Origin: Oscillospiraceae bacterium
GTDB taxonomy: Bacteria > Bacillota_A > Clostridia > Oscillospirales > CAG-272
DNA: 23,047 nucleotides
Assembly: GCA_015064195.1 (NCBI GenBank)
Contig: SVSO01000019.1
Span: 1-23,047, forward strand
Direction of reading: 5' to 3'
Shown in pieces: positions 1 through 16,336 of this stretch. Position 1 is the first letter of the stretch. Each line of letters starts with the position of its first letter. The translations under genes and the position numbers were made by a program. A model generated the notes under the pieces. That model did not search any database. It saw only the letters and a list, made by a program, of their open reading frames with translations, and was not told where the DNA came from.

Positions 1-1
1 C

Positions 2-697
2 ACCGCCCATGCCAACGTCTGGCCCATCTTCGGCGGCAAGGCGACCGTTGAGCTTGACGGAACCGCCACCGATCCCGACGGCGACGAGCTGACCTATTCC
101 ATCGACGATACCGCATTCCGTGAGGGGGACTGGGAGCTTGACGGCGACAAGCTGACCGTGAAAAAGTACAGCATCCGCAAAGGCTCCTTCACTGTCCGCG
201 CAACCGATGAAAAGGGCGCATACTGCACCTTCCAGGTGCTGTTCACCTCCACCAATATCGGCATCATCATGCTGATCGCCATCGCAGTGGGCATTATTCT
301 CGTGGTGTCCCTCATTTCCATCAAGATCTACCGCGATTATCTGCGCACCTTCAACGGCGAGATCACCGTGAGAACCGTGGGCGACGGCTATCCCCAGGAG
401 GTCGTGTTCAGCCCCGCCAATTATCCCAGAATGCGCGGCCGCATCTATCTGACCGAGGCGGGATTTGGCCGGTGCGGATTCCACAAAAAGAGCTATTTCC
501 AGGCCTGCGGCAAGAAAAAGCAAGTCTATTTTGTCAGCGCAAAGCCGGTCTACGGCAGCTACAGCGGCAACGGTAAGAAGAAGATCCTGATCACCAGCGA
601 TCTCGGCGATGTGGAGATCTTTGCTCAGCCCGACTGCAAGGAAGGCATCACCGCCGCATTCCACAGCTATATGGCAGATTCCTACGATTATCAATAA
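2..697 (+). CDS. Membrane protein with extracellular cadherin/Ig-like domain, 5'-truncated
   Basis: The frame is open from base 2 with no convincing start, so the N-terminus lies outside the window. The visible part begins with an Ig/cadherin-like segment containing the acidic motif ATDPDGDELTY, typical of calcium-binding cadherin-like repeats. One hydrophobic helix follows (about bases 254-325, IGIIMLIAIAVGIILVVSLI), then a basic stretch, then a cytoplasmic beta-rich domain of about 120 residues. The layout is a type I single-pass protein with the cadherin-like module outside and the beta domain inside. Clostridial proteins of this shape often carry a von Willebrand A domain further N-terminal, but that cannot be seen here. 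It ends in TAA 29 bases before the tubulin-like gene, in the same direction, so it probably shares its transcript. It may be the surface sensor or anchor of the system. The function is inferred only from architecture. Confidence 0.8.
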   Translation, partial: TAHANVWPIFGGKATVELDGTATDPDGDELTYSIDDTAFREGDWELDGDKLTVKKYSIRKGSFTVRATDEKGAYCTFQVLFTSTNIGIIMLIAIAVGIILVVSLISIKIYRDYLRTFNGEITVRTVGDGYPQEVVFSPANYPRMRGRIYLTEAGFGRCGFHKKSYFQACGKKKQVYFVSAKPVYGSYSGNGKKKILITSDLGDVEIFAQPDCKEGITAAFHSYMADSYDYQ

Positions 698-726
698 GTT
701 CCGATTCGGAGAAAGGGTAGAATAAC

Positions 727-3700
727 ATGAATTACAAGCGTTTGTTACTGAGCACCGGCGGCGGCATCATCAGCGAGAATCAGATGGATGAGCAGGCCAA
801 CTGCGCCACCATTGCCATCGGTCTCGGCGGCACGGGCATTGCCTGCCTGCGCAACTTCAAGAGCCAGATCTATTCCCACGTCAGACCGGACAATGACAAC
901 ACCATTGTGCCGAAATATTCCCACATCAAGTTCCTCGCGGTGGATTCCGATGCCACCTCGCTGAACAATGACGGCGACATCAACGGACAGCTGGACCCCA
1001 ACGACGAATTTTTCCCCATTTCCTGCGATGACATCAACGGCCTTATCTCCAACAGCGCCCGCATCGCAAACTCCCCCGAATGCAAATGGCTGCAGACGTT
1101 GGATCCCGAAAAGGGCAAGCAGGGCCTGTCCATTTTCAGCACTACCGCAGGTGCGGGCGGCGTCCGTCAGATCGGCCGTCTGCTGCTGCTTCAGAAATCC
1201 GACCTGTTCGTTCAGCGCGTGGAGCAGATGATCGATGCCGCCACCGCCAATCTGACCGGCGGCTACAGCATCGTCGTCCACATTTTCACCGGTATCGGCG
1301 GCGGAACCGGATCCGGCACCTTCCTTGATGTGTGCTACCTTGTCCGCCATGCACTGGAGCGCAAGACCGTGCTTGGAAAAGCGGCTCTCCTCGGCTATTT
1401 CTTCCTGCCCGACGTGAACCTGAGCCGCCCCAATCTGCCCGATCCGACGCGCCGCTACATCATGGAAAACGGCTTCTCCGCCATGAAGGAGCTGGACTAC
1501 TGCATGAGCTTTGCCGAGAATCACGGCGAGTGGAATCAGACCTATCGCGGCTTCTCGCTGGATCACGTCAAGGATTCGCCGGTGAAGATCGCGCATCTCA
1601 TCTCCGCCAATACCATCAAGGGCGTTCACATCGACGGCAGCAGTGCCTTTGATTACGCCATGAATGTGGTGTCCGATTACGCCATGATGTTCCTCGTCAA
1701 GAACAACGCTTCCTTCGACATCAACTCCCACATCGGCAACTATTTTGCAAATGTGGCGAAGATCCAGAAGCCCAGCGGCGCGAACTATCACTACTGTCTG
1801 CTGGGTGCGGCAAAGGCCGTCGTGCCGATCCGCGAGATCACCACGTACCTCGGCAGCGCACTCTTTGAGCGGATGTCCTACCTCAAGACCCGTCAGCCCG
1901 ACGATCTGGAGACGGAAGCCATCGCCAAGGAGCTGGGACTCACCGGCGATCTCATCCTTGCCGCGCTGAAGCAGGGAAGCCAGCAGATCGGCATGAGCCC
2001 CGAGCTGTTCAACCCCAACGATTACAAGCATATCGCCATCACCGCCGAGGTGGAGGAGGAAGACAACACCGCCCCCGCCGAGCTGCTGGCACCGCTTCGC
2101 AAGGGCCGCGAAAAGCTGCTTGGCAAGGTGCGCGAGAACGGTGCGGCCATGACCAACGACTGGTCGGTGAAGATGCTGAACGGCGATCAGGGCGAAACCT
2201 CCAAGGTCTGCGCAGTTTACAACAAGCTGAAATCCATCGTTGTCGATTCCGCCACCGGCCCGATCTATGCGGCACTGGTGCTCAACGGCGCGGGCAATAA
2301 GAACCTGATCAATATGCTTCAGGGCACGATCCGCGAGTATGATGTGAAGCTGGATCATCTCCGCTCGGATATGGAGCTTCGCTATAAGGCAGTGTACGGT
2401 GCAAAGCGTGCGCTGGCGGACAGCAATATGTTCAACCGCAAGACCAATTTCGCCAATTATGTGGGTGCGCTGGTGCGTTATTTCCGCGATGCCACCGACA
2501 TCACCATCATTGAAGAAGCGAGAAAGGTCACTGTCAAGATCATCGATCAGCTGAAGGAGCTGTACACCCACTTCTACGTCTATTCCGGCGTGGTGGAAAA
2601 CCTCATCGACACCTTCAACGAGAACAAGCGTTACCTCGATTCCGTGGAAAACGGCGCCATCACCGATCCCTTCGTTCAGCAGCTCATCAAGCTGGAGGAC
2701 GTGCGCGATTCCATTGCGGCGACCATCGAAGGCATGGATCTGGCCGGCGAAATGAGCAGCTTCAACGACGAGCTGTTCCGCGACTTTGAGTGCTGGATCA
2801 ACGGCGATGAGAGAAAGATCGCAAAGAAGGTGTCCGAATATCTGCTGGCGCGGTTCAGCGGCTATACCAACAAGACCCTCACCGATTATCTGGAGATCAA
2901 ATTCCAGACAAACGATCCCACGATCCTCACCCAGCGTGTGCAGAATGAGATCCTCGAGCCGCTGAGCAGCATGGCGGATCCCATGTTCTGGATGGGCTCC
3001 CTCATCTCCTCCTCTGTGGTTCAGCCGGTGGGCTATGCATGGGTGCCCAACTCTGCTGCGGTCATCCAGAATGCCATGACCAATCTGGTGGGCACGGCTA
3101 CTCATAAGCATTATCAGATCAACAGCTGTGACATCAGCGACCGCGTATCGCTGGTACTGTGCAGCTGCGGTATGCCCATGTTCGGCTACGCTGGCATCGC
3201 CAACTACAAGAATGAGTATGACAACGCCGTTTCCGTCGGCCGTCACCTCTACGAAGGCACGGACGCCGATCCCCGCGACTGGCGCACACTCAGCGACCTG
3301 CTCCCCTACAGCACCCAGTCCTATCCCACGGAGATCATGAAACAGCGTTCCGCCGCATATGACCGCGCCATCGAGCTTGGCATCATCATCAATGCCCCCG
3401 GCACCGCTGATTGGCGTGCGGCATTCTGGCCGGACATCACCGCGGATCTGGATGCGGCGAAAGCGGCCATTGCAACCGGCGACGTGAATACCATCAATTC
3501 CGCAAAGGCGGCATTTGAAGCGAAGATGGCATCCATTGCCCCCGAACGCTTCACTCTGCTGGTCAATGACGGCGCCATGGGTCACGAGGAGGCAGTACGC
3601 CGCGACCATGTGGTGAATTCCGCCGCACTCAGCGCCAATCTCGCGAAGGAGATCGCAGTCCGGGAATCCGTGCCTGCCATGATCGCGGCACTGGATGAGG

Positions 3701-4155
3701 CAGTCAAGAGCATCAGCATCGGCTTCAATCTCAAGGCGGACTTCAACAATGCCATGATGACCGGTGTGTTCGACTACAAGCATCCGAAGATCACCTACGA
3801 GTACAAGAACGAATTCGGCGTGCCCACCGTGATCACCCTGAGCGAGCCGGCCATGACTCCCTACGGCGCAGTATGCCCCATCTATCAGGCATACAAGACC
3901 TTCGCCGCACTGGATGAAGCAAAGCGCACCTATGCCGGCAATCTGGCAAACGAGCGTCTTGCACTGGCGGATGAGCAGATGAAGGCAAGCTGTGAACAGC
4001 TGTCCCGCATCTTCAACGACAACTATCTGCGTGCAGTGGGCGGCCTTCTGGAAAGCCGCATTGCCGATTCCGACGAGCGAATGGAGATCCAGAAGTTCGT
4101 CTACCAGTTCCGTCAGCTTCTGGCGGACACCAGCGCAACCTATTTCCTGTCCTGA
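727..4155 (+). CDS. Tubulin-like GTPase (FtsZ/tubulin superfamily, large bacterial tubulin-like family)
   Basis: A 1142-aa cytosolic protein. The N-terminal third carries the tubulin/FtsZ nucleotide-binding elements: a first strand and glycine loop GLGGTG (residues 32-37), an AVDSD strand end (71-75), an AGAGGVRQIGR loop (141-151), the tubulin signature GGGTGSG (191-197) after IFTGI, and an FFLPDV strand end (225-230). A possible equivalent of the catalytic T7 loop lies in NNASFDIN. The remaining roughly 800 residues are mostly helical and unlike FtsZ, which is only about 350-400 aa. This matches the large 'tubulin-like' bacterial families proposed to act in membrane remodelling, not cell division. 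ATG at 727 follows a purine-rich GGAGAAAGGG site. It probably binds GTP and may polymerise. It is followed by an intergenic hairpin and then by a possible degenerate relative. Confidence 0.9.
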   Translation: MNYKRLLLSTGGGIISENQMDEQANCATIAIGLGGTGIACLRNFKSQIYSHVRPDNDNTIVPKYSHIKFLAVDSDATSLNNDGDINGQLDPNDEFFPISCDDINGLISNSARIANSPECKWLQTLDPEKGKQGLSIFSTTAGAGGVRQIGRLLLLQKSDLFVQRVEQMIDAATANLTGGYSIVVHIFTGIGGGTGSGTFLDVCYLVRHALERKTVLGKAALLGYFFLPDVNLSRPNLPDPTRRYIMENGFSAMKELDYCMSFAENHGEWNQTYRGFSLDHVKDSPVKIAHLISANTIKGVHIDGSSAFDYAMNVVSDYAMMFLVKNNASFDINSHIGNYFANVAKIQKPSGANYHYCLLGAAKAVVPIREITTYLGSALFERMSYLKTRQPDDLETEAIAKELGLTGDLILAALKQGSQQIGMSPELFNPNDYKHIAITAEVEEEDNTAPAELLAPLRKGREKLLGKVRENGAAMTNDWSVKMLNGDQGETSKVCAVYNKLKSIVVDSATGPIYAALVLNGAGNKNLINMLQGTIREYDVKLDHLRSDMELRYKAVYGAKRALADSNMFNRKTNFANYVGALVRYFRDATDITIIEEARKVTVKIIDQLKELYTHFYVYSGVVENLIDTFNENKRYLDSVENGAITDPFVQQLIKLEDVRDSIAATIEGMDLAGEMSSFNDELFRDFECWINGDERKIAKKVSEYLLARFSGYTNKTLTDYLEIKFQTNDPTILTQRVQNEILEPLSSMADPMFWMGSLISSSVVQPVGYAWVPNSAAVIQNAMTNLVGTATHKHYQINSCDISDRVSLVLCSCGMPMFGYAGIANYKNEYDNAVSVGRHLYEGTDADPRDWRTLSDLLPYSTQSYPTEIMKQRSAAYDRAIELGIIINAPGTADWRAAFWPDITADLDAAKAAIATGDVNTINSAKAAFEAKMASIAPERFTLLVNDGAMGHEEAVRRDHVVNSAALSANLAKEIAVRESVPAMIAALDEAVKSISIGFNLKADFNNAMMTGVFDYKHPKITYEYKNEFGVPTVITLSEPAMTPYGAVCPIYQAYKTFAALDEAKRTYAGNLANERLALADEQMKASCEQLSRIFNDNYLRAVGGLLESRIADSDERMEIQKFVYQFRQLLADTSATYFLS

Positions 4156-4172
4156 TAAGCCATACCGAAACC

Positions 4173-4210
4173 GCGTATTCGCTGCCCCCATATGGGAGCG
4201 GCGAATACGC
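4173..4210 (+). promoter_or_regulatory. Intergenic hairpin after the tubulin-like gene
   Basis: Two perfect 10-base arms, GCGTATTCGC (4173-4182) and GCGAATACGC (4201-4210), can pair, and the interior adds further partial pairing around CCC/GGG. The hairpin sits 17 bases after the tubulin-like stop codon. No T-run follows; the next bases lead straight into the ribosome binding site of the following gene. It is therefore not a canonical intrinsic terminator. It could protect the 3' end of the upstream message or reduce readthrough, so that the possible filament subunit is made in excess over downstream products. The pairing is seen directly; the role is inference. Confidence 0.6.
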
Positions 4211-4219
4211 AATTCATAA

Positions 4220-4237
4220 GAAGGAGAACCGGCCTTG
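4220..4237 (+). promoter_or_regulatory. Ribosome binding site and TTG start of the 618-aa gene
   Basis: An AAGGAG-type site (within GAAGGAGAACC) lies 8 bases before a TTG codon at 4235. No ATG in this frame near the site is as well placed, and the protein sequence from the TTG (METIKELLQ) begins a plausible helix. I therefore take the TTG as the start. Confidence 0.7.
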
Positions 4238-6091
4238 GAAACCATCAAAGAGCTTCTGCAGACCTTGCAGAATGAGCTGGAAAACCGCATCAGCATCGCC
4301 GCCGCCGCCAACAATCGGCCCTATCGCCCCATGGCGATATTTTACGGCGGCAGATGGGCGCATTCCGCCTATCCCCATGTCATGCACGCCATGCAGTTCT
4401 ATTTCAAAAACCGCGCGGGCATCATCTGTCAGTATCTGATGGAGCGCGATGCCATCACGCGGGCGGATGCACCGGATGCGCCGGCCATGTCCGACGACGC
4501 GCTGTGTGAGGATATGAGCCGTATGTTCAACAGCGCGGAAAATTTCGCGAATCTGAAAAAGCTCCAGCTGTGTACCCTGCTTGCGACCCAGGATTATCCC
4601 GATCTGGACAGCTTTATCGCCGCCTTCGGGAAAATGGCGGAGCTGCGGCGAAAGGTGGAAATCCTCTGCGCCAATCCCGACTGTATGACCATCGTTCTGC
4701 TGAATGAGATCGGCATGAACAGCCGGACGGCGGCAGAGATCCGCAGATGGCTGACCGAGCTGTACCGGGAGGAGAATCCCCTCCGCGTACCGCTGATCCT
4801 CCTCTCAAACAAGCTCTCCAACGGCCTCATGATGACCTCACCCGAGCAGGTTCGCGAGAATTATGAGCTGGCGGGCAATCTTCTTGTGCTGGCAAATGAG
4901 AGCGAAGCCTGCAATCTTACCCGCTTTTTCCCCATCGGCTCGGTGAAGCCGGAGCGGTCGGAGATCCTCACCGCGTCCTATCAGCGCATGGAACGCCCCA
5001 ACCGGCAGATCTGTCAGGCGGCGGTGCATGAGCTGGCGGGATGGCTGGAGAAGGCGAAGCTGCAGCATCGCGTACTGGATGCTGCACAGCTGCGGGAACG
5101 GCTGAATCTGGGCAGCGGAAAATTTTCCCTGTTAGAGGATTACATCACCGAGACCATGCCGGACAATCTGTTCCGGCCGGAGGAGCTGGATGCCATGCCC
5201 CGCCGTGCGGCGGCGATGGGACTCAATCTGTCCGCGCTTCGGGCGGATGAGGTGCAGAAGCATACCTTCGGCGCACTGGAGCTGCTGTACACCCAGTTCT
5301 GGAACCGGTTCGTGGAGAGCGGCGAGCTGCATCGGCTCAAGGCGGGATTTGAAAGCCGGCTGGCGGCGTATTTCTGTCAGCAGCTCGGCTTTGATTCCAC
5401 CGCGTCGGACATTTCAACCGCCGATCTGTTCACCTACACCCGCGCAGAGCTTCCCGGAATGGGCGAGGTCGTCAGCACCTATCTGCCAAAACGCCTCCAT
5501 GCGGACATCATAAACGAGATCCTTTCCGATTATCGCTCCGGAAAACACGATCCCCTGCGCGCATACCTCATGAGCGTGGATGAGCGGATGCGCAGCATTT
5601 CCGCTGTCATTTCCGACTTCAACAATACCTACATCGAAAACGAGATCAGCGAATATTATGAGCAGAAGATCGATGTCCAGCTGGGAAGCGGCGACGGTCA
5701 GCGTCTGCTCGCCGAATGCACGTCCATGCAGAACGGCACGTTTGGCGTCCCCGAAATTCTCGCCGCGCTCCGCCGATGCGGTGCCCACCTGTTCGCATCC
5801 GATTCCGTTTATCGGCTCACGCTGGTGGATGAGATGAAGGTGCGCCTCGGCTACGATGAGGTGTCTCTGCTGGACTATATGAAGCACACCATGATCGATA
5901 CGGTGCTGGATCGCCTGCGCCTCCACGGAACGCTCAATCACACGAAGATCTTCTCGGCGATCCTCTACGATCAGAGCGACCGGAGCTTCTGCGATTTCAT
6001 CGAATCTCACGTGGGCGGCTGTACGTTCCTCAACACCGGCGACAAAAATGTCATCAAAAGCGTCCATCTCTACGCGGTCAACCTGATCTGA
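4235..6091 (+). CDS. Unknown 618-aa protein, possible degenerate tubulin-fold partner
   Basis: I recognise no named family. The first 220 residues show a strand/helix rhythm close to that of the tubulin-like protein just upstream: PMAIFYGGRW at 32-41 in place of AIGLGGTG; a strand at 110-116 (LQLCTLL); a helix at 124-144; the strand MTIVLLNEIG at 151-160 where the tubulin has its strand before GGGTGSG; then a helix; and the strand PLILLSNK at 186-193. The phosphate-binding glycine motif itself is absent (MNSRTAA in its place). If this hand comparison holds, it is a nucleotide-free relative that could cap, nucleate or co-assemble with the GTPase. The remaining 400 residues are predicted helical. 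There is no signal peptide or membrane segment. It starts at TTG, 79 bases after the tubulin-like stop, and is on the same strand. An unrelated alpha/beta adaptor is the main alternative. Confidence 0.85.
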   Translation: METIKELLQTLQNELENRISIAAAANNRPYRPMAIFYGGRWAHSAYPHVMHAMQFYFKNRAGIICQYLMERDAITRADAPDAPAMSDDALCEDMSRMFNSAENFANLKKLQLCTLLATQDYPDLDSFIAAFGKMAELRRKVEILCANPDCMTIVLLNEIGMNSRTAAEIRRWLTELYREENPLRVPLILLSNKLSNGLMMTSPEQVRENYELAGNLLVLANESEACNLTRFFPIGSVKPERSEILTASYQRMERPNRQICQAAVHELAGWLEKAKLQHRVLDAAQLRERLNLGSGKFSLLEDYITETMPDNLFRPEELDAMPRRAAAMGLNLSALRADEVQKHTFGALELLYTQFWNRFVESGELHRLKAGFESRLAAYFCQQLGFDSTASDISTADLFTYTRAELPGMGEVVSTYLPKRLHADIINEILSDYRSGKHDPLRAYLMSVDERMRSISAVISDFNNTYIENEISEYYEQKIDVQLGSGDGQRLLAECTSMQNGTFGVPEILAALRRCGAHLFASDSVYRLTLVDEMKVRLGYDEVSLLDYMKHTMIDTVLDRLRLHGTLNHTKIFSAILYDQSDRSFCDFIESHVGGCTFLNTGDKNVIKSVHLYAVNLI

Positions 6092-6132
6092 ATATCGGGC
6101 GGACAGCCATCATATAAATAAGGAAGAACGAT

Positions 6133-6810
6133 ATGTCAATCATTTTCGATAAGCTGAGCGCAGAGCACTGCGCTGTGTTCAACAGTCTGAGCCGGACGAA
6201 GGAAAACTGCACCGCCCGTATCGATCAGAACGGCTGCACCCATCTGCTCCTCCTGCGCTATGACAGCACAAGAGAGCTGGAGCTATGCTCCGAGCAGGTG
6301 ACAAATGCGCTGTTTTCCATGGGCGAGCGGCTGTATGAGAATCGGTTCATCCCCCTGGAGGGCTGCGAAATGTCCGTCAAATGCGTGCCGCTGACGGTGG
6401 GAACGGGAAGCTGTGTCTCCCTGACACTGCCGCCCACACCGGCAAAATACGGCGTGTTCGGCATGATGGCACAGGGCGGCAATTGCGTGATCTATCGCCC
6501 CGCACCCGGCAGCAACATCACCGTGACCTTCACCGTTATCATGGAGATCACCTACACCATCACCCGCTTTATGAAGGAAAAACGCTCGCTGTTCCGCAAA
6601 ACGAAGGAGCCGACGCCCTTCTGGGAGGTGCGCATCACGCCCAACGAATATTACACCGACGGCACCATTTATTATCAGCTGAACGGCGGCACGATGAAAT
6701 ATCCCGTCTCTGCCGAAATGATGCAGTATCCCTTCTACATCCGCTCCGCCGATCCCATGGAGCCGACCTTTTCCGCCGATACTGCCGCAGTCATCATCAA
6801 CAAACAATAA
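6133..6810 (+). CDS. Hypothetical 225-aa cytosolic protein of the GTPase operon
   Basis: Not recognised. The 225-residue product has no signal peptide and no clear membrane helix. Its sequence alternates short hydrophobic and polar residues as beta-rich domains do (for example NITVTFTVIMEITYTI near residues 128-143). All eight cysteines lie in the first 118 residues and none in the remaining 107. The C-terminal half has an aromatic-rich run of strands around PNEYYTDGTIYYQLNGG. It starts 41 bases after the 618-aa gene behind a GGAAGA site and ends 18 bases before the zinc-ribbon GTPase gene, so it is almost surely co-transcribed and is probably a dedicated adaptor or structural part of the system. 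Nothing in the sequence gives a catalytic role. Confidence 0.8.
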   Translation: MSIIFDKLSAEHCAVFNSLSRTKENCTARIDQNGCTHLLLLRYDSTRELELCSEQVTNALFSMGERLYENRFIPLEGCEMSVKCVPLTVGTGSCVSLTLPPTPAKYGVFGMMAQGGNCVIYRPAPGSNITVTFTVIMEITYTITRFMKEKRSLFRKTKEPTPFWEVRITPNEYYTDGTIYYQLNGGTMKYPVSAEMMQYPFYIRSADPMEPTFSADTAAVIINKQ

Positions 6811-6828
6811 CTCAGGAAGGATGTCAAA

Positions 6829-8328
6829 ATGAAAATCACCTGTCCCTACTGTTTTGAAGAATTCGAGGATCATCAGGTTCATTTCCGCATGGAGACCTGC
6901 TTCGGTGAGGGCGAGCTGAACGATCTCGGTCTTCCGCTGGACGAAATTGAGCACATGGACAATTCTCCTGAAAAGGAGGCACTGCTGGCACAGATGGCGG
7001 AGCGTCAGCCCTTTGAAACGGGTCAGAGCAGCCGATATCAGCAGTTCTGGTCCGTCTACGGTGCGACCAGCGAAAAATATACGGATTTCGATCGGCGCGT
7101 CTATCGCTGTGCATCCTATGAGCTGCCGGTCATCGATCCGCTGAATGCGCCGGAGCATTCTTTACGCGCACCGGACGGAAGCCGGGATGTGCTCATCCGC
7201 GACCGGAAATCCGGCATGGTCACGGCGGTCATCGACCGGTTCGGCCATGAGACGAAGCGCCGTGTCTGCCCCCATTGCCACAATCCGCTCCCCCAGAGCT
7301 ACGGCCAGCATGAGGTGAAATTCATCTCGGTTATCGGCGTGTCCGGCTCGGGCAAGACCATCTACATCTCGCAGATGCTCAAATATATGCAGAAATACGC
7401 TTCCTACGCGGGCATGGCGGCCTTCCCGCTCAGCCACGCGGAGAGCGATTTCGTCAACGATAACCCGGTCATTCAGGGCCATCCCCTCGCGCCGTCCAAT
7501 ATGTCCGGCCGCCTGTCTCAGCCCATGTTCTACGATCTCATGTACAAGGATGAGAAAAAGGGCAATGTGACCAACACCATCGTGCTGTTCGACATCGCAG
7601 GCGAGGACTGCATCACGCCGGAAGGTATGCAGCGGTTCGGACGGTTCGTGCGCAATTCCCACGGCATCATTTTCCTGGTCGATCCCCGACAGCTGGGACT
7701 TATCGGCATGACTGGTCAGGTGGATGCGCCGCCCACACAGGTCATCGATGCCATCCACCACATCTGGAACAGCGCCGTGACCATCCCCATGGCAGTCTGC
7801 GTGCCGAAAAGCGATATGTTCTCCCTGCCGGAGACCCATCCCAACGACATCATCCATTCCGACATCACCGTGGAGGATGGGATGCGTTTCAATGCCACCC
7901 AGTACAACCACATCGTCATGCCGCTGAAGAATCTCATTCAGAATGCGGACGGTCTGCCCCTGCTCAACGCGCTCAAGATGAATTTCCCCAACCACAACCT
8001 GTTCGCGTTCTCCTCCATCGGCTGTTCGGTGGAAAAGCGGGACATCGACGGTCTGGAGCGAAGCGTTCCTGTCGGCCCGACCTTCCCGCGCCGCATCGCT
8101 GAGCCGCTTCTGTGGATGTTCTTCAAATTCGGCTACATCCGCTCGGATGTGAAGATCCGCCTGCCCTTCCGCCGGGAATTCCCCGAAATGATCACGGATT
8201 ACGAAAATGCAAGCTTCTTCCAGAAGCTGACGAAAAAATATCCCAAGCGTCCGCTGAACGAATCGGAAAAGCAGGTCTACGATTACGAACAGCGATGCTT
8301 CACGATCCCCGCCGATTCCGCGCAGTAG
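6829..8328 (+). CDS. Zinc-ribbon TRAFAC-type GTPase (double-GTPase-like)
   Basis: A 499-aa protein. The N-terminus has C5-x2-C8 with H15/H18 and C24 nearby, and a second CPHC pair at 147-150, consistent with one or two zinc-binding ribbons. The GTPase core follows: Walker A/G1 GVSGSGKT (170-177), G3 DIAGE (255-259) after the strand NTIVLF, and a G4-like PKSD (326-329) in place of the usual N/TKxD. This order of zinc ribbon then P-loop, with a partner resembling GAP1 encoded next door, fits the double-GTPase (DO-GTPase) families described from conflict-system genomics. I cannot separate DO-GTPase1 from DO-GTPase2 by eye. It is probably a switch that controls the other components. ATG is preceded by AGGAAGG. 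No membrane segment is seen. Confidence 0.85.
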   Translation: MKITCPYCFEEFEDHQVHFRMETCFGEGELNDLGLPLDEIEHMDNSPEKEALLAQMAERQPFETGQSSRYQQFWSVYGATSEKYTDFDRRVYRCASYELPVIDPLNAPEHSLRAPDGSRDVLIRDRKSGMVTAVIDRFGHETKRRVCPHCHNPLPQSYGQHEVKFISVIGVSGSGKTIYISQMLKYMQKYASYAGMAAFPLSHAESDFVNDNPVIQGHPLAPSNMSGRLSQPMFYDLMYKDEKKGNVTNTIVLFDIAGEDCITPEGMQRFGRFVRNSHGIIFLVDPRQLGLIGMTGQVDAPPTQVIDAIHHIWNSAVTIPMAVCVPKSDMFSLPETHPNDIIHSDITVEDGMRFNATQYNHIVMPLKNLIQNADGLPLLNALKMNFPNHNLFAFSSIGCSVEKRDIDGLERSVPVGPTFPRRIAEPLLWMFFKFGYIRSDVKIRLPFRREFPEMITDYENASFFQKLTKKYPKRPLNESEKQVYDYEQRCFTIPADSAQ

Positions 8329-8349
8329 TGCCGAAAGGAGACAAAGATT

Positions 8350-10533
8350 ATGGCAGAATTCAGATTCTATCAGGGATGCTGTTCCCGCTGCGGTGACACC
8401 AGCGTCATCGGCGGCTGGCAGATGTTCAATCTGTCCCCCGATATGCCGAAATCCACCGGCGAATTCTTCGAGCAGGCGGCAAAACAGCATGAACCCACCA
8501 ATAAAATGATCCTCGACGTTGACGGCCAGCCCTTCTGGGCGCTGGATCTCTATGCGTCGGGCGACAATGTGATCCTTTCGCGCACCCGCTACGCCATGAA
8601 CGACAGCCTTGGCCGCGCCAATCTGTTCACCCATTGCTTCTGCTTCCCCGAAGGCTACGAGCTGCTCAAGGATCCCAATCGCATTCTCACCGTGACCCGG
8701 GAGAATTTCGGTGATACCGCGGAGAAAACTGCCGTTATCCCCACGGAGCTTGTCCGATCCGCGCCCATGACCCGGGACGCCATCCTCGCCGAGCTGCAGA
8801 TGGATTCGGAAAAATACAAAACGCTACTCTGGGCGGCATATGCGGTGCTGGATGCCAATAAATCCTCCAATTCTCTCTACATCGTCACCGACGGCCGCGA
8901 ATCCACGGCCATCAAGCTGCTTTACCTCATCCTGTCCGCCATCCCCTACTCCCTGCGCACCCGCATCAGCGCGTCCACCTATCCGGACACCGTTCCCGGC
9001 CGCGCCATGTTTGTGCTGTGCCAGCGGGAAGCGGTGCGCGATCAGTTCCACTTCATCGACCCTATCACCGGCGAGAACAACGTGGTGAACCAGAATCTCA
9101 TCAACCGGTTCGCCAAGTTCCCGTTCATCACGGCGGCGGCTGATGGCATGGACGAGGCGCAGACGGCGGAGCTTCATGAAAAAATGGAATATTGGAGCGA
9201 TGAGATGGGTGACCGGCAGTATGACAAGCTCTTAAAGCAGTCCCTCATCTGGGAAATGGCACAGGGAACCACCCGCAGTGCCGCCGGACTGTTCCACGAC
9301 TGGCTCACCCTGTCCGTAAGAAGCACCGAACGCTATGAACGCCACCTGACTGAGCTGCTTTCCCGTGTGATGGCGGAGGGGCTGACCCTCGATGCCTCCA
9401 CCGAGCAGGCACTGAACGACCGCGTTTCCCGGGCTGTGACGGATGCATTCCGCGAAACGGCGTTTGATTATCGCTGTCATGCCATCGCCGGCATGGATAC
9501 GGATGCGGGCTGTGCCTATCTCGCAAGCCTGCCCATCGAAGCAGAGACGCAGAAGCCGCTGCGGGATGCGCTGATGGCCATGGAGTCCGGAAAGGCTCTG
9601 CTCACCGAATATTTTGACCGCCGCGCCGCAAAGCTGGCGGAATCCGGCAATACCACCTACGCCGCCATCTGCGCCATGTACGATGAATCGGCGGCATACG
9701 GCAGTGAAAAGCTGACCGGAACGCTTGTCGGAATGGCGGAAAAGACGGCAATGACCGAGCTTTCTGGTGAGCATAATTTTGACAAGGCGGGCAAAGCCTT
9801 TGTGGAATGCATGGAGCATCTTGGTGCAAACGGCGATGCGGAGACCTGTGAAGCCATCTTCCAGCGCCTGTGTGATCACTACGATTCGCTGTTCCTCCAT
9901 TCCTTCCGCGAGGAAAAGATGGCGGAATACAAGCATTTTTACGAGAATCATGCCAAGCGGTATCCCGTTTCCGCAGGAATGTGCCGCGTCATGGACATGA
10001 TCCGCGAGAAGCAGTATCCGGCGGTGCTGGATTATCTCGACAACGAGCTGGATGCGCAGATCCTGCTCATGCCCGATGCCAAAGCAGACGGCGATGCGCT
10101 TGTCGAAATCATCGCGTCCCAGATGGTGAAGCACGGCAGTGACTGCGAGCTGTCCGCACTGTGGATGCGCATTGCGGAGCTGAAAAAGAAAAATCTCGCC
10201 GATTTTATGGTGGACAATCACATCGCCATGGTTTACGATGCGCAGAAAATGCGCACGGCGGTGACAAATGATCCCGCGTGGACATCGGAAAAGCTGACGG
10301 CATTCCAGTCGCGGCTGGGTGCGGCGGTTCTGACCATGCCGAATCCCGCGCTTCAGGCGACGGTGAACGAGCTGACATCGCTCATCAAGGAGATGGATAA
10401 AGCGGAGAAAAAAGCGGCGGCACTTGCCCGTAAGCAGGAACGCCGGCAGTCCAATCCCGTGCTGCTCTTTGCCTCCAATCTGAAGGAGCGTCTGGGCAAA
10501 AAGAAGGATGACGCAGACGAGGATGACCGGTAA
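8350..10533 (+). CDS. GTPase-associated protein 1 (GAP1)-like protein
   Basis: A 727-aa protein. The N-terminus has the pattern remembered for GAP1 N-terminal domains: an opening strand with cysteines, the GWQMFNLSP segment (22-30), then a strand leading to LSRTRYAMNDSLGRANLFTH (76-95), matching the family's arginine...GR.GN.FaH core. The middle (about 155-245) resembles the GAP1 middle domain: a helix, the strand SLYIVTDGRES, a helix ending in IPYSLRTRISASTYPD, then more strands. The C-terminal two thirds is helical and ends in a highly charged tail. GAP1 proteins are typically encoded beside DO-GTPases, as here: 21 bases after that gene behind GAAAGGAG. It presumably binds or regulates the GTPase; a biochemical GAP activity is not shown by the sequence. 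Its stop overlaps the start of the kinase-like gene. Confidence 0.8.
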   Translation: MAEFRFYQGCCSRCGDTSVIGGWQMFNLSPDMPKSTGEFFEQAAKQHEPTNKMILDVDGQPFWALDLYASGDNVILSRTRYAMNDSLGRANLFTHCFCFPEGYELLKDPNRILTVTRENFGDTAEKTAVIPTELVRSAPMTRDAILAELQMDSEKYKTLLWAAYAVLDANKSSNSLYIVTDGRESTAIKLLYLILSAIPYSLRTRISASTYPDTVPGRAMFVLCQREAVRDQFHFIDPITGENNVVNQNLINRFAKFPFITAAADGMDEAQTAELHEKMEYWSDEMGDRQYDKLLKQSLIWEMAQGTTRSAAGLFHDWLTLSVRSTERYERHLTELLSRVMAEGLTLDASTEQALNDRVSRAVTDAFRETAFDYRCHAIAGMDTDAGCAYLASLPIEAETQKPLRDALMAMESGKALLTEYFDRRAAKLAESGNTTYAAICAMYDESAAYGSEKLTGTLVGMAEKTAMTELSGEHNFDKAGKAFVECMEHLGANGDAETCEAIFQRLCDHYDSLFLHSFREEKMAEYKHFYENHAKRYPVSAGMCRVMDMIREKQYPAVLDYLDNELDAQILLMPDAKADGDALVEIIASQMVKHGSDCELSALWMRIAELKKKNLADFMVDNHIAMVYDAQKMRTAVTNDPAWTSEKLTAFQSRLGAAVLTMPNPALQATVNELTSLIKEMDKAEKKAAALARKQERRQSNPVLLFASNLKERLGKKKDDADEDDR

Positions 10534-11579
10534 TGGCTGACATTGTGCGCGCGTACAGTCTTATCGCCGGCCGCGGACGGTATCATCTGCAGATGGAGAA
10601 CGGCAGATTCACCGCCCGCCACTGCGAGACGGGGGAAACCTTCCGCCTGATGCCATTTGAGCGGACGTTTGACAGCTCTGTGCGCTATGACCGGCTGTCG
10701 GAGGATGCAGCGTCCAATGCGTGGAGCGAATTCTTCACCCGCGTGATCCTCCATCCCGTCTGCACGCCGGGCATCGAATGGCCGGTGGATGCGGTGGAGT
10801 ATGCGGATATCACCCGCAAGACTGCGGTGGGCTGGCTGTTCCCGGAAAAGCAGGCCTTTCCCGGATTTCGTCCCATCCGTGAGCTGCTCTATCAGCCGAA
10901 AACCAGCGTGATCCCCGATTGGCGGCAGGGCAATACCCTGACCGTCTGCATCGGACTTGCCCGGCTGCTGACCGCACTGGATGCACAGGGCTGGGCCTAT
11001 CACGATTTCAATCCGGAGACGATCCTTTATCGCCCGGATACGGGGGAAACCGCCCTCCGCTTCACCGGCAGAGTGCGCACCTTCGATCCCCATGCTATCC
11101 CGAACGAACTGGATTCGGCGCGGCTGGCCATCGATTTTCTTCCGCCGTGGCTGGGACGGATCTACGGTCAGACCGCCTATCTTTCCCGCTCGGACGATTC
11201 CTATTCGGCGAGCGCACTGCTGTTTTGCCTGATGATCGGCCGCCTGCCCTATGAAGGCTCCGAGCTGGAGCGGTTCGGCACGGTGTACGATCCCATGCGC
11301 GACACCGATGCGGAAAATCACCGGTATTATTTCACCCAGTATCACCGGTACGCAAACTTTATTTTTTCCGAACAGAACGACTACAACAGCTTAAGTCCGG
11401 CGCAGGTCAACGATCTGCCCCGTGAGCGCTGGGCGGCACTTCCCGTGACCGTGCGATCGCTGTTTCTCCATCAGTTTACCGCCGATGGGGAAGGGCGCAT
11501 CCGACACGACTGCGCGGTGGAGCCGGAGCGGTGGATGCGGGTGCTGACCTCGCTCAAAGAGCTGGAAGTAGACGGATAG
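10533..11579 (+). CDS. Degenerate Ser/Thr protein kinase (pseudokinase)
   Basis: A 348-aa protein with a protein-kinase plan but eroded catalytic motifs. A glycine-rich start (IAGRGRYHLQ, 11-20) is visible, but the expected ATP-binding lysine position reads FRLMPFE. The catalytic-loop equivalent is YHDFNPETIL (156-165): the aspartate remains, HRD has become YHD, and the metal-binding asparagine is threonine. The DFG region reads RFTGRV with no aspartate. The C-lobe helix SYSASALLFCLMIGRLPYEG (223-242) is well kept, as is the later FIFSEQNDYNSL, which recalls the FIF..ND.SN motif of bacterial kinases found with vWA and phosphatase genes. ATG overlaps the GAP1-like stop (TAATG), indicating translational coupling. 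It is likely a scaffold or nucleotide sensor, not an active kinase. Confidence 0.85.
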   Translation: MADIVRAYSLIAGRGRYHLQMENGRFTARHCETGETFRLMPFERTFDSSVRYDRLSEDAASNAWSEFFTRVILHPVCTPGIEWPVDAVEYADITRKTAVGWLFPEKQAFPGFRPIRELLYQPKTSVIPDWRQGNTLTVCIGLARLLTALDAQGWAYHDFNPETILYRPDTGETALRFTGRVRTFDPHAIPNELDSARLAIDFLPPWLGRIYGQTAYLSRSDDSYSASALLFCLMIGRLPYEGSELERFGTVYDPMRDTDAENHRYYFTQYHRYANFIFSEQNDYNSLSPAQVNDLPRERWAALPVTVRSLFLHQFTADGEGRIRHDCAVEPERWMRVLTSLKELEVDG

Positions 11580-11589
11580 GAGACTCGAC

Positions 11590-12633
11590 ATGGAACTTAC
11601 ACAAATCAAAGATCTGCCGCGCCTCCTTGCCGGCAAGCGGAGGACAGCATATCCGCCCTTCGCCCTGAAAATGCGGGAGCTGATGGCAGGCAATGGCTGG
11701 GTGCTCATCTCCGATCCCGCCACATTTGCAGAGCGGATGGCGGCGGCGGGCATTCCCGAATCGGAGCGGCGCTGCATTCTGTTCGTTCTGCAAAGCGATG
11801 TCTGGCAGTCCATGGAGGAGCGTCTGCGCACGAATTACTGCTCGCTGGATCTCAGCCATGTGGTGACGGGCGTGACGCGGGACGGACTGCAGGCAGAAGC
11901 GGCACTTCGCGCGGTGCAGACGCTGGCCTATGGCCTCGGACTGCCGCTGACCGTATTCGACCACGAGAATCTGCCGCCGGAATCGGAGAGCGGCGGAAAA
12001 TCCGAGCTGTTCATCCCGCCCGCTGTCTATGAGGAGGAGCTTGACGAGATCGAACGCCTGCTCCGGGACGGCGATGCACCGGATGAAGCGCAGACGGAAT
12101 TCACGGCACAGCTCTACCGTGCCAAGGTGCCGAGAGCCGCCCGGCTCATGGGCATGATGTACGGCGCGGGGCTTGGCGTGGAGAAAAATGAAAAATCCGC
12201 CATGAAATGTCTCTATCAGGCGGCAAAACAGGGCGACTGCGAGGCCGCCGGACTGCTGGGCGACGCTTACATGGCGGCGAAGGATTACGAAAAAGCGCGC
12301 AAATATTATCTGTTCCCCGGCGCGATGGCACTGAATGCCAAGCGCGCGGAAAATCTCGATGAGATCGACCGGATGCGGACGCGCATTGCAAAGGAATTTC
12401 TCCTGCTGTGTGTCATGTTCGCCCTGAGCGCGATCCTGATGCTGGTATTTCTGCGGGAATCGGCCATCACCGGCCCGCATACGCTGTCGGCCATCATCTG
12501 CACGGTCATCGGCGGCGTGCTGACGGCGGGACTGGGACTTGTCCACTGGGTGATGCCCTATCAGAGCCTTATCCGGAGCGGCATCGTCTATCTGGTGCTG
12601 TTTTTCGTGCATTCCCTGATCTTTATTCTGTAG
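11590..12633 (+). CDS. Sel1-repeat protein with three C-terminal membrane helices
   Basis: A 347-aa protein. Residues 1-130 form a soluble alpha/beta domain of no recognised family, followed by an acidic linker. About residues 183-245 contain Sel1/TPR-type helical repeats (AARLMGMMYGAGLGVEKNEK, then a partial second repeat with GLLGDAYMAAKDYEKARKYY), a fold that mediates protein-protein contacts. Three hydrophobic helices follow at roughly 269-288, 299-319 and 329-347, so the protein is held in the membrane with its repeats in the cytosol. ATG follows a GGAG site only 10 bases after the pseudokinase stop, and its own stop abuts the ribosome binding site of the next gene. It is a plausible bridge between the cytosolic GTPase/pseudokinase parts and the polytopic membrane protein. 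The role is inferred. Confidence 0.85.
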   Translation: MELTQIKDLPRLLAGKRRTAYPPFALKMRELMAGNGWVLISDPATFAERMAAAGIPESERRCILFVLQSDVWQSMEERLRTNYCSLDLSHVVTGVTRDGLQAEAALRAVQTLAYGLGLPLTVFDHENLPPESESGGKSELFIPPAVYEEELDEIERLLRDGDAPDEAQTEFTAQLYRAKVPRAARLMGMMYGAGLGVEKNEKSAMKCLYQAAKQGDCEAAGLLGDAYMAAKDYEKARKYYLFPGAMALNAKRAENLDEIDRMRTRIAKEFLLLCVMFALSAILMLVFLRESAITGPHTLSAIICTVIGGVLTAGLGLVHWVMPYQSLIRSGIVYLVLFFVHSLIFIL

Positions 12634-12645
12634 GAGGGCGGCGAA

Positions 12646-14349
12646 ATGAAATCCAAAGAAAAAAATCTCGCCGCGTTTCTGGGATGCGTCGTGTTCATCT
12701 TTGCAGGCCTCATCGGACATTTCACCATCCCCGGCCTTATCTCCTCCGTGATCATCTGCGGCATTCTCTATCTGCGCACCGTCCATTCGGCGGCGGTGGC
12801 GGAGCGTGAGGTCAGCGAGGATCTGGGCGTGCTGTTCGGATGGCTCGTCACCGCACAGCTGATGATCCACGTGGGCGCGGAGGTCATCACCGGCGTGCTC
12901 CTGCCGAATCTGACAAGCCTCCCCGCATTTTTCCTGTCGCGGGTACAGAATGTGCTGTTCTTCATGGAATCGGTGCATTTCGCGGTCATTATCGCGGTTG
13001 TTGTGCTGACGCTGGTGCGCATTTTCGTCGTCCTCGGCACAGCCAGCCCCTATGTGAGCCTGTGGATGCGCTATCTCTATCTGACGGCGATGATGAGCCT
13101 GTTTCTCATCCTGACCGATTGTTCCGGTCTCATCGGCACCATGCTGCTTGTGATGATGGTGTCGGCAGGCTGTTCGGTGCTGTCTGTGCGATGCACCGGA
13201 AAGCTGGTGAAATCCGCCAACCGGATGTATCTTGTCAATATCCTTCTGATCCTGCTGTTTCTCATCCTCTCCGAGCCGCTGACGGTGGAGATTCAATTCA
13301 CCAACATAAATGACCGGCTGATGGATGTGATCTTCGGCGTGCCGAGCCTGATTCTGGCAGCGGCAGGCACGGCGGCACTCACCGTCTGCGCCGTCGTCTG
13401 GCGCAAGGAGGATTCCTACACCGGCCGGCTTGACCCGTGCAGCTTCCTCTGGGGCGGCGCATTTTATCTGACGCTCTGGTTCATGCATCGGTTTCCCTTC
13501 GGCTGGCAGGCGATCCTGCTTGTGATCTTCCTGTTTCTGGCGAACTTCGGCCTGTCCCATCATACGCCGAATAAGCGGTACAACAAGGATTTTCTGCGCA
13601 TGAACCAAAATGCGCAGAAAAGCAGCATGATCTACGCCATGTCGTGGCCGCTGGTACTGGCCGCGGCAACGGTGGGACTGAATCTCATCTGCAATCGCGG
13701 CGGCCTCATTCCGGCCATGGCGTTGCTGGTGTTCGGACTGCCGCTCATCGGCGTCATTCGCTATGCGCGCAAAAAAGGTGCAGTTCGGGCAAAAACCATC
13801 ATCTGCACCTACACGGCGGTGCTGATCGGCATCACAGCGGCGGCATTTGCGGCGGTTTATCGGAGCATACCGCAGAATTTCGTCATCATCCTCGCATCCA
13901 CTCTGCTGGCGGCGGTATTCATCGTCATGCTGGGCGTGGGTGAAGCGAAGAAATGGTATGTGGAAGGCGCATCGCTTGGCGTTCTCGCGCTCATCTGCCT
14001 TCTCGCCCTCAGCCGGTACGGCACGGCGTTGACGGCGGAAACAGACGACGAGGGTCAGCTGACTGCCATCTCTGTGGAAGCGCGGGGGGATGGAAATGCC
14101 GTGGAGGAAGCGATCTATTACTGGCAGCCCAGTCTGCGGGATGCCATGCGGCTGGCGCTGGACGAGAATCTGATGGCGGAATTTGAAGCTTCGCCGGAGG
14201 AACTGCCTGCACTGGCGGCTGAACTTCGGTACGGCGGAAAAATCCGGGTGGAGACGGTGGATTCCTTCGGCATCCGCACCAGCCTTACCTGGTGGATCCC
14301 GGAAAAATGGTCGCCGGACAGCTATATTATCCCTGTGGATTCTGAATAA
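12646..14349 (+). CDS. Polytopic membrane protein, about 14 helices, unknown function
   Basis: A 567-aa protein. By eye it has about 14 hydrophobic segments across residues 8-460 (for example VFIFAGLIGHFTI, FAVIIAVVVLTLVRIFVVLG, YLVNILLILLFLIL, TIICTYTAVLIGITAAAFA), then a soluble acidic C-terminal domain of about 110 residues ending in PDSYIIPVDSE. No transporter signature is recognised. The many helices and the low charge in the membrane part fit a transporter, channel or membrane scaffold. It starts behind GGAGG 12 bases after the Sel1 protein gene and is the last gene before a strong terminator. Position and linkage suggest it is the membrane component on which the cytosolic GTPase machinery acts. 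Its function cannot be read from the sequence. Confidence 0.85.
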   Translation: MKSKEKNLAAFLGCVVFIFAGLIGHFTIPGLISSVIICGILYLRTVHSAAVAEREVSEDLGVLFGWLVTAQLMIHVGAEVITGVLLPNLTSLPAFFLSRVQNVLFFMESVHFAVIIAVVVLTLVRIFVVLGTASPYVSLWMRYLYLTAMMSLFLILTDCSGLIGTMLLVMMVSAGCSVLSVRCTGKLVKSANRMYLVNILLILLFLILSEPLTVEIQFTNINDRLMDVIFGVPSLILAAAGTAALTVCAVVWRKEDSYTGRLDPCSFLWGGAFYLTLWFMHRFPFGWQAILLVIFLFLANFGLSHHTPNKRYNKDFLRMNQNAQKSSMIYAMSWPLVLAAATVGLNLICNRGGLIPAMALLVFGLPLIGVIRYARKKGAVRAKTIICTYTAVLIGITAAAFAAVYRSIPQNFVIILASTLLAAVFIVMLGVGEAKKWYVEGASLGVLALICLLALSRYGTALTAETDDEGQLTAISVEARGDGNAVEEAIYYWQPSLRDAMRLALDENLMAEFEASPEELPALAAELRYGGKIRVETVDSFGIRTSLTWWIPEKWSPDSYIIPVDSE

Positions 14350-14350
14350 T

Positions 14351-14386
14351 AAGAAAGCCTGATTGAAAAATCAGGCTTTCTTTTAT
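14351..14386. terminator. Bidirectional intrinsic terminator between convergent genes
   Basis: Perfect 14-base arms AAGAAAGCCTGATT (14351-14364) and AATCAGGCTTTCTT (14369-14382) flank a GAAA loop. On the + strand the hairpin runs into TTCTTTTATT, a good U-tract. On the - strand it ends in TTATTATT. It closes the GTPase operon and directly abuts the dpaL stop codon (14383-14385), so it probably serves both transcripts. Confidence 0.92.
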
Positions 14387-15573: not shown

Positions 15574-15589
15574 ATAGACCTCCGCGTGA

Positions 15590-15624
15590 TAAAAATGAGC
15601 TGCCGCACGGTCATGCAGCAGCTC
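15590..15624 (-). terminator. Intrinsic terminator after the lipoprotein gene, in the dpaL leader
   Basis: Read on the - strand, GAGCTGCTGCA and TGCGGCAGCTC pair over 11 positions (one G-T wobble) around a TGACCG loop, followed by ATTTTTATC. It lies between the lipoprotein stop and the dpaL ribosome binding site, leaving only 16 bases to the dpaL start, which is too little for a separate promoter after it. Confidence 0.85.
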
Positions 15625-15637
15625 AGCTATGTTGCGA

Positions 15638-16336
15638 TTATTTCTTGGTGATCTTGGTGATGTGGGGGTTAGCGCCCTGATACCAGTACAGGAAAGCTTC
15701 AACATCAACGGTGTCGCCAACTGCCAGTGCGCCGACAGTCTTGTAAACATCGCTCTCAGTGCCGGTGAGGTAAACTTCAACGCAGAAGCTGTAGGAAGCG
15801 CCGTTCAGACCGAGGGTGACATAGATGTCATCGCCGGGCTCGCCGTTCTTGTACTCAACTGCTTCAACGGTCAGGCCCTTGAATGCGCACAGCTTGTTCT
15901 GATGCTTGATCAGATCGTCAGTGCCGAGGAGTGCGGTAGCGTCCATAGCATCAGCAACCCAAGTGCCCTCGAGGATTTCAAAGGACTCAACGTCTGCGAT
16001 CTCAATTTCTCCATTGAACTCAGCCTTGAAGCCCTTTACGCGGATCTTCGTGCCGGGAACGAGCTTGTTGTACTCTTCTTCGGTGCAGGGCATTTCATAG
16101 ATGAAATAGCCGCCTTCGCCATCCTGCGTGTAGAATGTACCCTTGTTGTCCCACCAGCTCTGCTTACCCTGAACGTAAGTCTCAACGACTACTTCAGCCT
16201 GAAGCTCAGCTGCATCGTACTCAGCGTAGGTCATAACGCCCTCGCCCTTGGTGGTGTCAGGTCCCTTGCTTCCGCCGCAAGCAACGAGTGCAAGTGCGAG
16301 CACGAGAGCCATGGCAACTGCAAGAATTCTCTTCAT
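15638..16336 (-). CDS. OB-fold-like lipoprotein, function unknown
   Basis: A 232-aa secreted lipoprotein. The signal peptide MKRILAVAMALVLALALVAC ends in an LVAC lipobox with C20 as the lipidated residue, followed by a GGSKG linker. The mature part reads as two beta-barrel units of the OB kind: VVVETYV...GTFYTQDGEGGYFIY...LVPGTKIRVKGF, then a second half with KLCAFKGLTVEAVEY and AVGDTVDVEAFLYWYQG. Such clostridial lipoproteins are common and uncharacterised. The gene has a consensus promoter, an AAGGAG site and its own terminator. Its codons lean to AAG, GTT and GCT more than those of its GC-rich neighbours. Taken together this suggests high expression. It could receive readthrough from the ABC operon, whose last stop is only about 10 bases upstream of the -35 element. 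Confidence 0.85.
   Translation of the reverse strand: MKRILAVAMALVLALALVACGGSKGPDTTKGEGVMTYAEYDAAELQAEVVVETYVQGKQSWWDNKGTFYTQDGEGGYFIYEMPCTEEEYNKLVPGTKIRVKGFKAEFNGEIEIADVESFEILEGTWVADAMDATALLGTDDLIKHQNKLCAFKGLTVEAVEYKNGEPGDDIYVTLGLNGASYSFCVEVYLTGTESDVYKTVGALAVGDTVDVEAFLYWYQGANPHITKITKK

Follow-up and report, generated by a model that had tools for sequence, protein, structure and literature searches.

We analysed a stretch of 23,047 nucleotides from an Oscillospiraceae bacterium (contig SVSO01000019.1; hereafter the window), in which nine open reading frames (ORFs) on the plus strand, g1 to g9, span positions 2-14349 and include genes for a tubulin-like GTPase, a probable second tubulin-fold protein, a switch GTPase with its GAP1 partner, a predicted pseudokinase and membrane proteins (Table 1). 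The intergenic distances are, in order, 29, 79, 41, 18, 21, -1, 10 and 12 bases, and the run closes with a hairpin that has a 14-bp perfect stem and a T-rich tail; the segment 14345-14395 folds with -21.4 kcal/mol (z -7.2, none of 200 shuffled sequences being as good). A preliminary description of the window had proposed nine same-strand cistrons, separated by anything from a 1-base overlap to a 79-base gap and ended by a strong terminator, and the ORF coordinates and the hairpin bear this out; a consensus terminator scan did not list the hairpin. A Shine-Dalgarno-like motif of 4-6 nt lies 5' of all eight starts present in the window. In four cases (g3, g6, g8 and g9) the motif has at least 5 nt and lies at the usual distance, which holds for 20 of the 1095 start codons, of whatever kind, that the window contains. 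The motif before g2 is badly spaced (15 nt). GC content at the third codon position is 0.72-0.77 in all nine genes, and the long antisense ORFs are best read as by-products of these GC-rich third positions, since homologues match the plus-strand frames. Promoter-like sites on both strands of positions 1-20000 numbered 10, against 10.9 expected by chance, and therefore give no pointer to internal promoters; of the internal promoters and terminators which, according to the preliminary description, might split the run into unrelated units, promoters at least do not rise above chance. Neither Rfam nor a tRNA scan found anything in the window.

Table 1. Features of the operon and the basis on which each was assigned
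Feature	Position	Strand	Basis
g1, C-terminal part of probable membrane-anchored vWA surface protein	2-697	+	Big_9 5.6e-4 (below Pfam cut-off); orthologues
g2, catalytic tubulin-like GTPase (FtsZl1/Tubulin_2), 1142 aa	727-4155	+	PF13809 1.2e-51
g2 G-box (T4 loop) GGGTGSG, residues 191-197	1297-1317	+	motif read
g3, predicted tubulin-fold protein without G-box ("pseudo-tubulin", working name), 618 aa	4235-6091	+	TTG start, AGGAG at 8 nt
g4, predicted tandem FN3/Ig-like beta-sandwiches, 225 aa, no transmembrane segment or signal seen	6133-6810	+	predicted fold
g5, DO-GTPase2 switch GTPase	6829-8328	+	PF19993 3.7e-9
g6, GAP1 (GTPase-associated protein 1) with polar C-terminal extension	8350-10533	+	GAP1-M PF20014 5e-6; extension from translation
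g7, predicted pseudokinase	10533-11579	+	profile matches to PDB Ser/Thr kinases 1.8e-10; no catalytic triad
g8, Sel1-repeat protein with three C-terminal hydrophobic segments (3 transmembrane)	11590-12633	+	PF08238 1.2e-8
g9, polytopic membrane protein (~13 transmembrane segments) with hydrophilic C-terminal domain	12646-14349	+	hydropathy
Intrinsic terminator-like hairpin and tail	14351-14385 (stem 14351-14382)	+	adjoins convergent gene 14383-15780

The Pfam matches of g2, g5, g6 and g8, together with a kinase fold seen for g7 by profile, agreed with the families named in the preliminary description, which had given g3 and g4 no name; g1, g3, g4, g7 and g9 had no Pfam family above the cut-off. 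NCBIfam gave nothing at or above its curated cut-offs for the nine proteins (best sub-threshold match 5.6e-4, for g8), and among the families listed for them by Pfam, NCBIfam and PADLOC there was no nuclease or toxin, as had been remarked before. The switch GTPase g5 carries two N-terminal CxxC motifs (a zinc ribbon), the P-loop GVSGSGKT and the motif DIAGE with the Walker B glutamate, and the GAP1 gene lies directly 3' of it. GAP1-N2 (PF20013) was listed in 7 of 21 members of the g6 family (best 5.1e-4).

Relatives were collected by scanning a species genome collection with an 18-row alignment of g2, which gave 75 loci; two peptide patterns were used and 80 of 120 confirmed stretches were kept, the set being a sample. 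Loci L001-L038 are of the close type. Six-frame ORFs of at least 70 aa from the loci were searched with profiles of the nine genes. As the loci were fetched by g2, its presence in them is by construction and that of the remaining genes is not. Both g3 and g6 occur in 21 distinct relatives (L021 and L013 lie on one contig; the window is uncounted). In all 21, g2-g3-g4-g5-g6 follow in the same order on one strand, with a single wide gap of 535 bases between g4 and g5 in L017; g7 is present in 16 and g8 in 15. A scattering of these genes among related genomes, which the preliminary description had named as the observation that would speak against it, was looked for and did not appear, and its proposal of one operon encoding one machine gains support from the conserved order. 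That the nine genes are neighbours without a joint function is very improbable. We found nothing in favour of this, and the order is kept in two phyla despite deep divergence, with a median pairwise identity across 12 loci of 36% for g2, 39% for g5, 30% for g7 and 24-26% for g3, g4, g6 and g8. The median for eight proteins in the slot of g9, some of them cut, is 24%, which is near the chance level for hydrophobic proteins, and the tail of g1 in the window is 37% identical to the others.

The two genes that open the conserved block differ in the G-box GGGTG[ST]G, the standard motif of tubulins and FtsZ. The N-terminal FtsZ-like GTPase domain of g2 contains this motif, as in FtsZl1 proteins, and GGTG[SA]G is conserved in all 29 g2 copies that adjoin g3; a protein search with g2 returned 993 proteins at E <= 0.001 among 7992 scored. 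The G-box is missing from all 25 g3 sequences. A tubulin/FtsZ fold was found for g3 in the predicted model, where a long helical stretch separates two tubulin-like parts. The modelled fold is like that of the bacterial, plasmid and phage tubulins TubZ and PhuZ and of the archaeal CetZ, from which g3 differs by the helical stretch and the missing G-box. With considerable confidence we take g3 to have a tubulin fold on the strength of this model, and it does not seem capable of the usual mode of GTP binding. The gene is present as one copy per genome in 13 of 13 genomes; Tubulin_2 occupies between one and three places per genome in the genomes of 13 relatives, and the nine window genes hold one Tubulin_2 gene besides g3. 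Misato/DML1 is a degenerate eukaryotic tubulin-like protein with degraded GTP motifs and no operon partners, and we found no bacterial pseudo-tubulin in the open-licence literature.

The likeness of the g3 model to tubulin may alternatively reflect convergence in an unrelated Rossmann-like protein, which we consider improbable. g3 has no match to tubulins in Pfam, in PDB sequences or by profile. The best (rank-1) Foldseek match of the model had an E-value of 3.5e-3, with metal-ion-dependent adhesion site (MIDAS) and flavodoxin-like chains in the same list, and a viral structure library returned mixed folds. A profile comparison of g3 with g2 found no similarity, so that the tubulin reading of g3 is drawn from the predicted fold. 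The PDB sequence search returned a tubulin neither with the g3 profile nor with the g2 profile, and a profile comparison of GAP1 with g3 gave nothing usable. A protein-database search with the g3 alignment recovered only the protein of the window itself, though the alignment holds 24 relatives, and is thus uninformative on the size of the family.

Downstream of GAP1, the 17-row profile of g7 matches protein kinases of the PDB, and Pfam Pkinase was listed for 7 of the 17 members at E-values up to 1 (best 0.0012). The HRD Asp, the Asn that follows it (HRDxxxxN) and the DFG Asp are the standard catalytic motifs of kinases; they are jointly kept in none of the 17 g7 sequences, that of the window included. 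We conclude that g7 belongs to a family of predicted pseudokinases and is not one degraded gene. In L015, a single 795-aa ORF (8284-10671) encodes both a degenerate kinase-like domain (residues ~4-269; PDB kinases 1e-12), which lacks HRD and DFG, and a DO-GTPase whose P-loop is at residue 462; the locus has a separate g7 pseudokinase gene besides. This predicted fusion ties kinase-like parts directly to the switch GTPase. The active kinase that the preliminary description thought possible upstream was found in L003, of the clade of the window, and in no other close locus: L003:4231-5337 encodes an intact-looking PknB-like kinase of 368 aa with HRDIKPQNI and DFG (PDB PknB 3.1e-25), three genes 5' of g1. 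Together with a 464-aa surface-type protein (IgA-protease-/internalin-like repeats) and a zinc-ribbon protein that has a single hydrophobic stretch and lies 380 bases before g1, it occupies L003:4231-7486 on the same strand as g1. These three upstream genes were not found in the other close loci, except for the similarity of the kinase to the L015 fusion.

By a simple hydropathy count, g9 has ~13 hydrophobic segments, a correction to the 14 helices given earlier, and its C-terminal domain is probably extracytoplasmic. A protein with at least three hydrophobic segments follows g8 in 12 of the 15 loci with sequence there (L011 and L027 have none, and the frame in L020 was unscored). The C-terminal tail of g9 resembles those of the slot proteins of L001, L002 and L021 (1, 0 and 0 of 1000 shuffles as good, respectively) and shows no similarity to L042 (768 of 1000). 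In phmmer searches, slot proteins from distant loci failed to match one another and the g9 of the window matched none, and a search for relatives of g9 returned only one fragment, identical to it.

The fragment g1 comprises an Ig/cadherin-like domain, one transmembrane (TM) helix at residue ~86 and a tail of ~125 aa. Full-length orthologues have a hydrophobic N-terminus and one more TM helix near residue 530-600, followed by the tail. Both orthologues scanned, from L003 and L033, contain a vWA domain (3.2e-17 and 1e-17), that of L003 (7867-9912) matching VWA PF00092 beside a weak Big_9 (Ig-like) match. The window fragment corresponds to this tail together with the final extracellular domain and is therefore very likely the C-terminal third of a secreted vWA protein, whose N-terminal signal and vWA part would fall outside the window. 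The preliminary description had called g1 a cadherin-like surface protein and had suspected a vWA partner further upstream. The Ig/cadherin-like domain is there, in what is probably the tail of a vWA protein, and the suspected partner is expected as well, very likely as the missing part of g1 itself. Pfam found no vWA family in g2-g9, which leaves the window with one vWA gene by orthology (g1).

We firmly assign the operon to a known class, that of the DO-GTPase/GAP1-N2 "tubulin" systems, for which a role in conflict was proposed (Kaur, Burroughs, Iyer & Aravind, 2020; PMC7159879), and of the FtsZl1 operons, for which membrane remodelling was proposed (Makarova & Koonin, 2010; PMC2875224); what follows refers to the passages of the two papers that treat these systems. 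The union of tubulin, zinc-ribbon GTPase, GAP1, vWA and membrane proteins has already been published there as a system; the preliminary description had known of no established function for the combined machine. A further mark of the former class is a host of multicellular habit, and of FtsZl1 proteins a coiled coil and a helical domain at the C-terminus. The window shares with the first a zinc-ribbon DO-GTPase, a GAP1 with a polar C-terminal extension, a tubulin with a long C-terminal part, a protein predicted to be FN3-like, a vWA protein (by orthology) and membrane proteins, and with the second the assembly of FtsZl1, vWA, a diverged P-loop GTPase (which in some cases carries a fused cysteine-rich domain), a kinase and TM proteins in one operon. 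It differs from the FtsZl1 operons in that its kinase is degraded, and GAP1 and g3 are unnamed in parts 1-3 of the 5 of that paper. Section 29 of PMC7159879 does not mention a G-box-less tubulin-fold protein, and its main text has "Sel1" once, for another system, and "pseudokinase" never. FtsZl1 tubulins and DO-GTPase/GAP1 pairs are established families whose functions are predicted, and we found no experimental study of DO-GTPase/GAP1 tubulin or FtsZl1 systems in the open-licence literature.

The Firmicutes layout, as laid out in that part of PMC7159879, has two tubulin genes and two vWA genes, one of the latter TM-rich. The window, by comparison, has one Tubulin_2 gene and no second TM-rich vWA gene, and carries instead the pseudokinase, the Sel1 protein with three TM segments and the polytopic protein. 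In L024, L033 and L037, a TM-rich protein matching the g1 profile (Pfam VWA 2.5e-9 in L033) replaces g7-g9 directly 3' of GAP1, and in L029 it lies one gene after GAP1. In L028 such a protein lies on the opposite side and is encoded in the reverse orientation, and GAP1 is followed by genes for FHA/DUF6382 and MinD/TadZ-like ATPase proteins (20263-22343), a hint that this branch may be tied to polarity or to a pilus-like structure. These arrangements agree with the two vWA genes of the published layout. In a Lactococcus relative (L026/L093), g7-g8-g9 are present and are followed by a TM-vWA protein (1.7e-16) and a 4-TM protein, so that this locus links the two layouts. As read from these loci, the module of predicted pseudokinase, Sel1 protein and polytopic protein takes the place of the second published vWA gene or, in a Lactococcus, stands beside it. 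An additional tubulin follows g9 in the genome of L003 and in L021, and no recognised part follows it in L038. A search for effectors 3' of g9 in L021, L090, L091, L092 and L093 (profile labels, by eye) met extra tubulins, TM-vWA, zinc-ribbon and Sel1-like proteins and ordinary genes, the Pfam scan in this search covering L093:4068-5300 and the cut g9 of L094.

Taken together, these observations lead us to favour, with moderate confidence, a membrane-docked, GTPase-switched tubulin scaffold of the DO-GTPase/GAP1-N2 and FtsZl1 class that senses an extracellular cue. The cue would be read by g1 and g9 and passed, via their cytoplasmic parts and a bridge made of g7 and g8, to the switch formed by g5 and g6. 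Depending on its GTP state, g5 would then license or disperse a polymer of g2, for which g3 may serve as a capping, nucleating or docking partner and g4 as an adaptor, and g8 would dock the polymer core to the membrane. Several observations weigh against this scheme. Five of the 21 relatives lack both g7 and g8 and one more lacks g8, so that the g7-g8 bridge is not universal. GAP1-N2 was not listed for the g6 of the window itself. The FtsZl1 proteins have no recognised T6-H7 elements in the account of PMC2875224, and polymer formation is thus not assured. For g3, the Foldseek E-values are weak, the viral structure matches are mixed and the profile comparison with g2 is negative, as described above. 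Finally, the flow of the signal is one that we infer.

The distribution of the system bears on its output. Among 391 genomes of the class of L003, g3 was clear in two (the centre genome and G004, both already in the locus scan; a third match, E 1e-3, has stops), and it was found in one of 296 genomes, the centre, of the phylum of Bifidobacterium. Tubulin_2 reached the cut-off in 11 of the same 391 genomes, which makes g3 the rarer marker. The carriers are mostly Clostridia, with Actinomycetota and a Lactococcus beside them; Lactococcus hodotermopsidis and Bifidobacterium callimiconis are among the cultured hosts. In an unrooted 28-row tree of g2, the three Actinomycetota rows form one clan within a 7-row clan that includes four Bacillota rows (100/100), and two Bacilli-labelled rows stand apart, L015 with a Clostridia row and L026 with Clostridia rows; the taxon labels of metagenome-assembled genomes in this tree may be wrong. 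We read the tree placement and the patchiness as pointing to lateral transfer of the system. No relative was found in IMG/VR or phage collections and no close relative of g2 on phage or viral records, and a plasmid search gave one distant match, from Meiothermus. Rare, patchy and present in two phyla, the operon appears to be an accessory, transferable module, so that contact sensing or conflict is a likelier output for it than a housekeeping role in division.

In the conflict reading (Kaur et al., 2020), an invader sensed by the FN3 and vWA parts would flip the DO-GTPase, and the tubulin polymer would act as the effector that sequesters or halts the cell. We regard an immune system of this kind as a real possibility, held at rather less than even confidence. 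The class assignment (in the sections of PMC7159879 noted above), the rarity of g3, the Actinomycetota and Lactococcus carriers and the faster divergence of most partner genes compared with g2 and g5 (the g1 tail being an exception) all argue for it. Against it, none of the nine proteins had a PADLOC match better than 0.032, so that PADLOC recognised no known anti-phage system by its protein families, no lethal domain is seen, and the loci are stable in the order and content of their genes, which sets them apart from modular effector sets. Rarity and transfer favour an accessory, conflict-type role, and the absence of an effector and the stable content weigh against it; these observations do not decide between the two published proposals.

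Flanking genes were also consulted on this point. As one set, 81 of the 125 flanking ORFs of relatives were compared with PADLOC and Pfam (L018, L021, L025, L031, L037 and some others were left out). Some matched PADLOC models strongly, which could be counted in favour of conflict: 66 families were reported, and among the matches listed were PDC-S01 (5.9e-87), mad6 (6.3e-50), PDC-M37B (5.3e-45), PD-T4-6 (2.7e-39) and mad3 (1e-27), with mad8 in five members. The set scan does not assign matches to ORFs, except that its first member is the HipA-like protein of L002. Of ten flanking ORFs examined singly, six had no PADLOC match and four had partial matches to shared domains (GlgB-like, MotA-like, AAA and a serine-protease-like stretch, the last by model name only), which speaks against the conflict reading. 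The models PD-T4-6 and mad3 are probably protein kinases, and one flanking ORF is the intact-looking kinase of L003. The flank scans thus neither establish a defence context nor argue it away.

According to Makarova & Koonin (2010), the polymer might instead shape the membrane or place surface proteins, as part of an envelope or membrane remodelling machine. This proposal, made in the passages of PMC2875224 cited, fits the three TM-bearing components and the domains that g1 and g9 would have outside the membrane part. It sits poorly with the patchy distribution and with the lack of any wall or lipid enzyme among the nine genes (Pfam), and the reviewer printed with that paper doubted it and suggested transport or signalling. 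We keep it as a tentative alternative.

Tubulin genes also occur in other arrangements among the loci collected. Seven of the loci without g3 break off no more than two bases from the tubulin ORF, and in L021 the tubulin falls outside the set. No g3 was found in the 10 kb after the tubulin of L018 or in the 1.1 kb after the last of the four tubulins of L025. The L018 gene, on a Ruminococcaceae contig, is of Tubulin_2 type with an intact G-box and lies among many genes of ~300 aa, with no match to g3-g6 in 22.9 kb; it probably belongs to a different tubulin system. L025, a Hungatella contig, has four tubulin-like genes within 15 kb (2172-16597), none with GGTG[SA]G; its isolate title is also that of L037, where g2-g6 are found, and the four genes are separate from these. 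In the more distant L040, L041 and L045, two proteins that match the g1 (vWA) profile, the second TM-rich, stand around a tubulin; it has 1260-1280 aa in L040 and L041, where g3-g8 gave no matches. Several records among L001-L038 are titled after gut samples from animals (chicken, goat, sheep, roe deer and rabbit, "Lapin"), and we take some isolate codes and the name Lactococcus hodotermopsidis to suggest termites.

To the right of the operon, positions 14383-23046 hold ordinary metabolic genes, namely those for a PLP-dependent enzyme (PALP, 9.7e-55), a small lipoprotein-like ORF (by eye), a binding-protein ATP-binding cassette importer (SBP, two permeases and an ATPase) and a family-2 glycoside hydrolase cut at the end of the window. 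The small lipoprotein-like gene (15638-16336) is preceded by a perfect sigma-70 consensus promoter, TTGACA-17-TATAAT, at 16434-16406 on the minus strand.

Whatever the output of the scaffold, g3 would provide a concrete binding partner for FtsZl1 tubulins and may explain why one of the operon's genes lacks a family name. Should g3 cap or nucleate g2, polymerisation of FtsZl1 proteins without recognised T6-H7 elements would become testable in vitro. A more specific proposal, which we consider rather unlikely as it stands, is that g2 and g3 form an obligate pair of active and inactive tubulins, in which a conserved bacterial pseudo-tubulin would cap or nucleate the catalytic tubulin under the control of a separate switch GTPase, with the pseudoenzyme g7 as a membrane-side scaffold. 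If this is true, bacteria would have put together a hetero-tubulin machine of their own, independently of the alpha/beta pair of eukaryotes.

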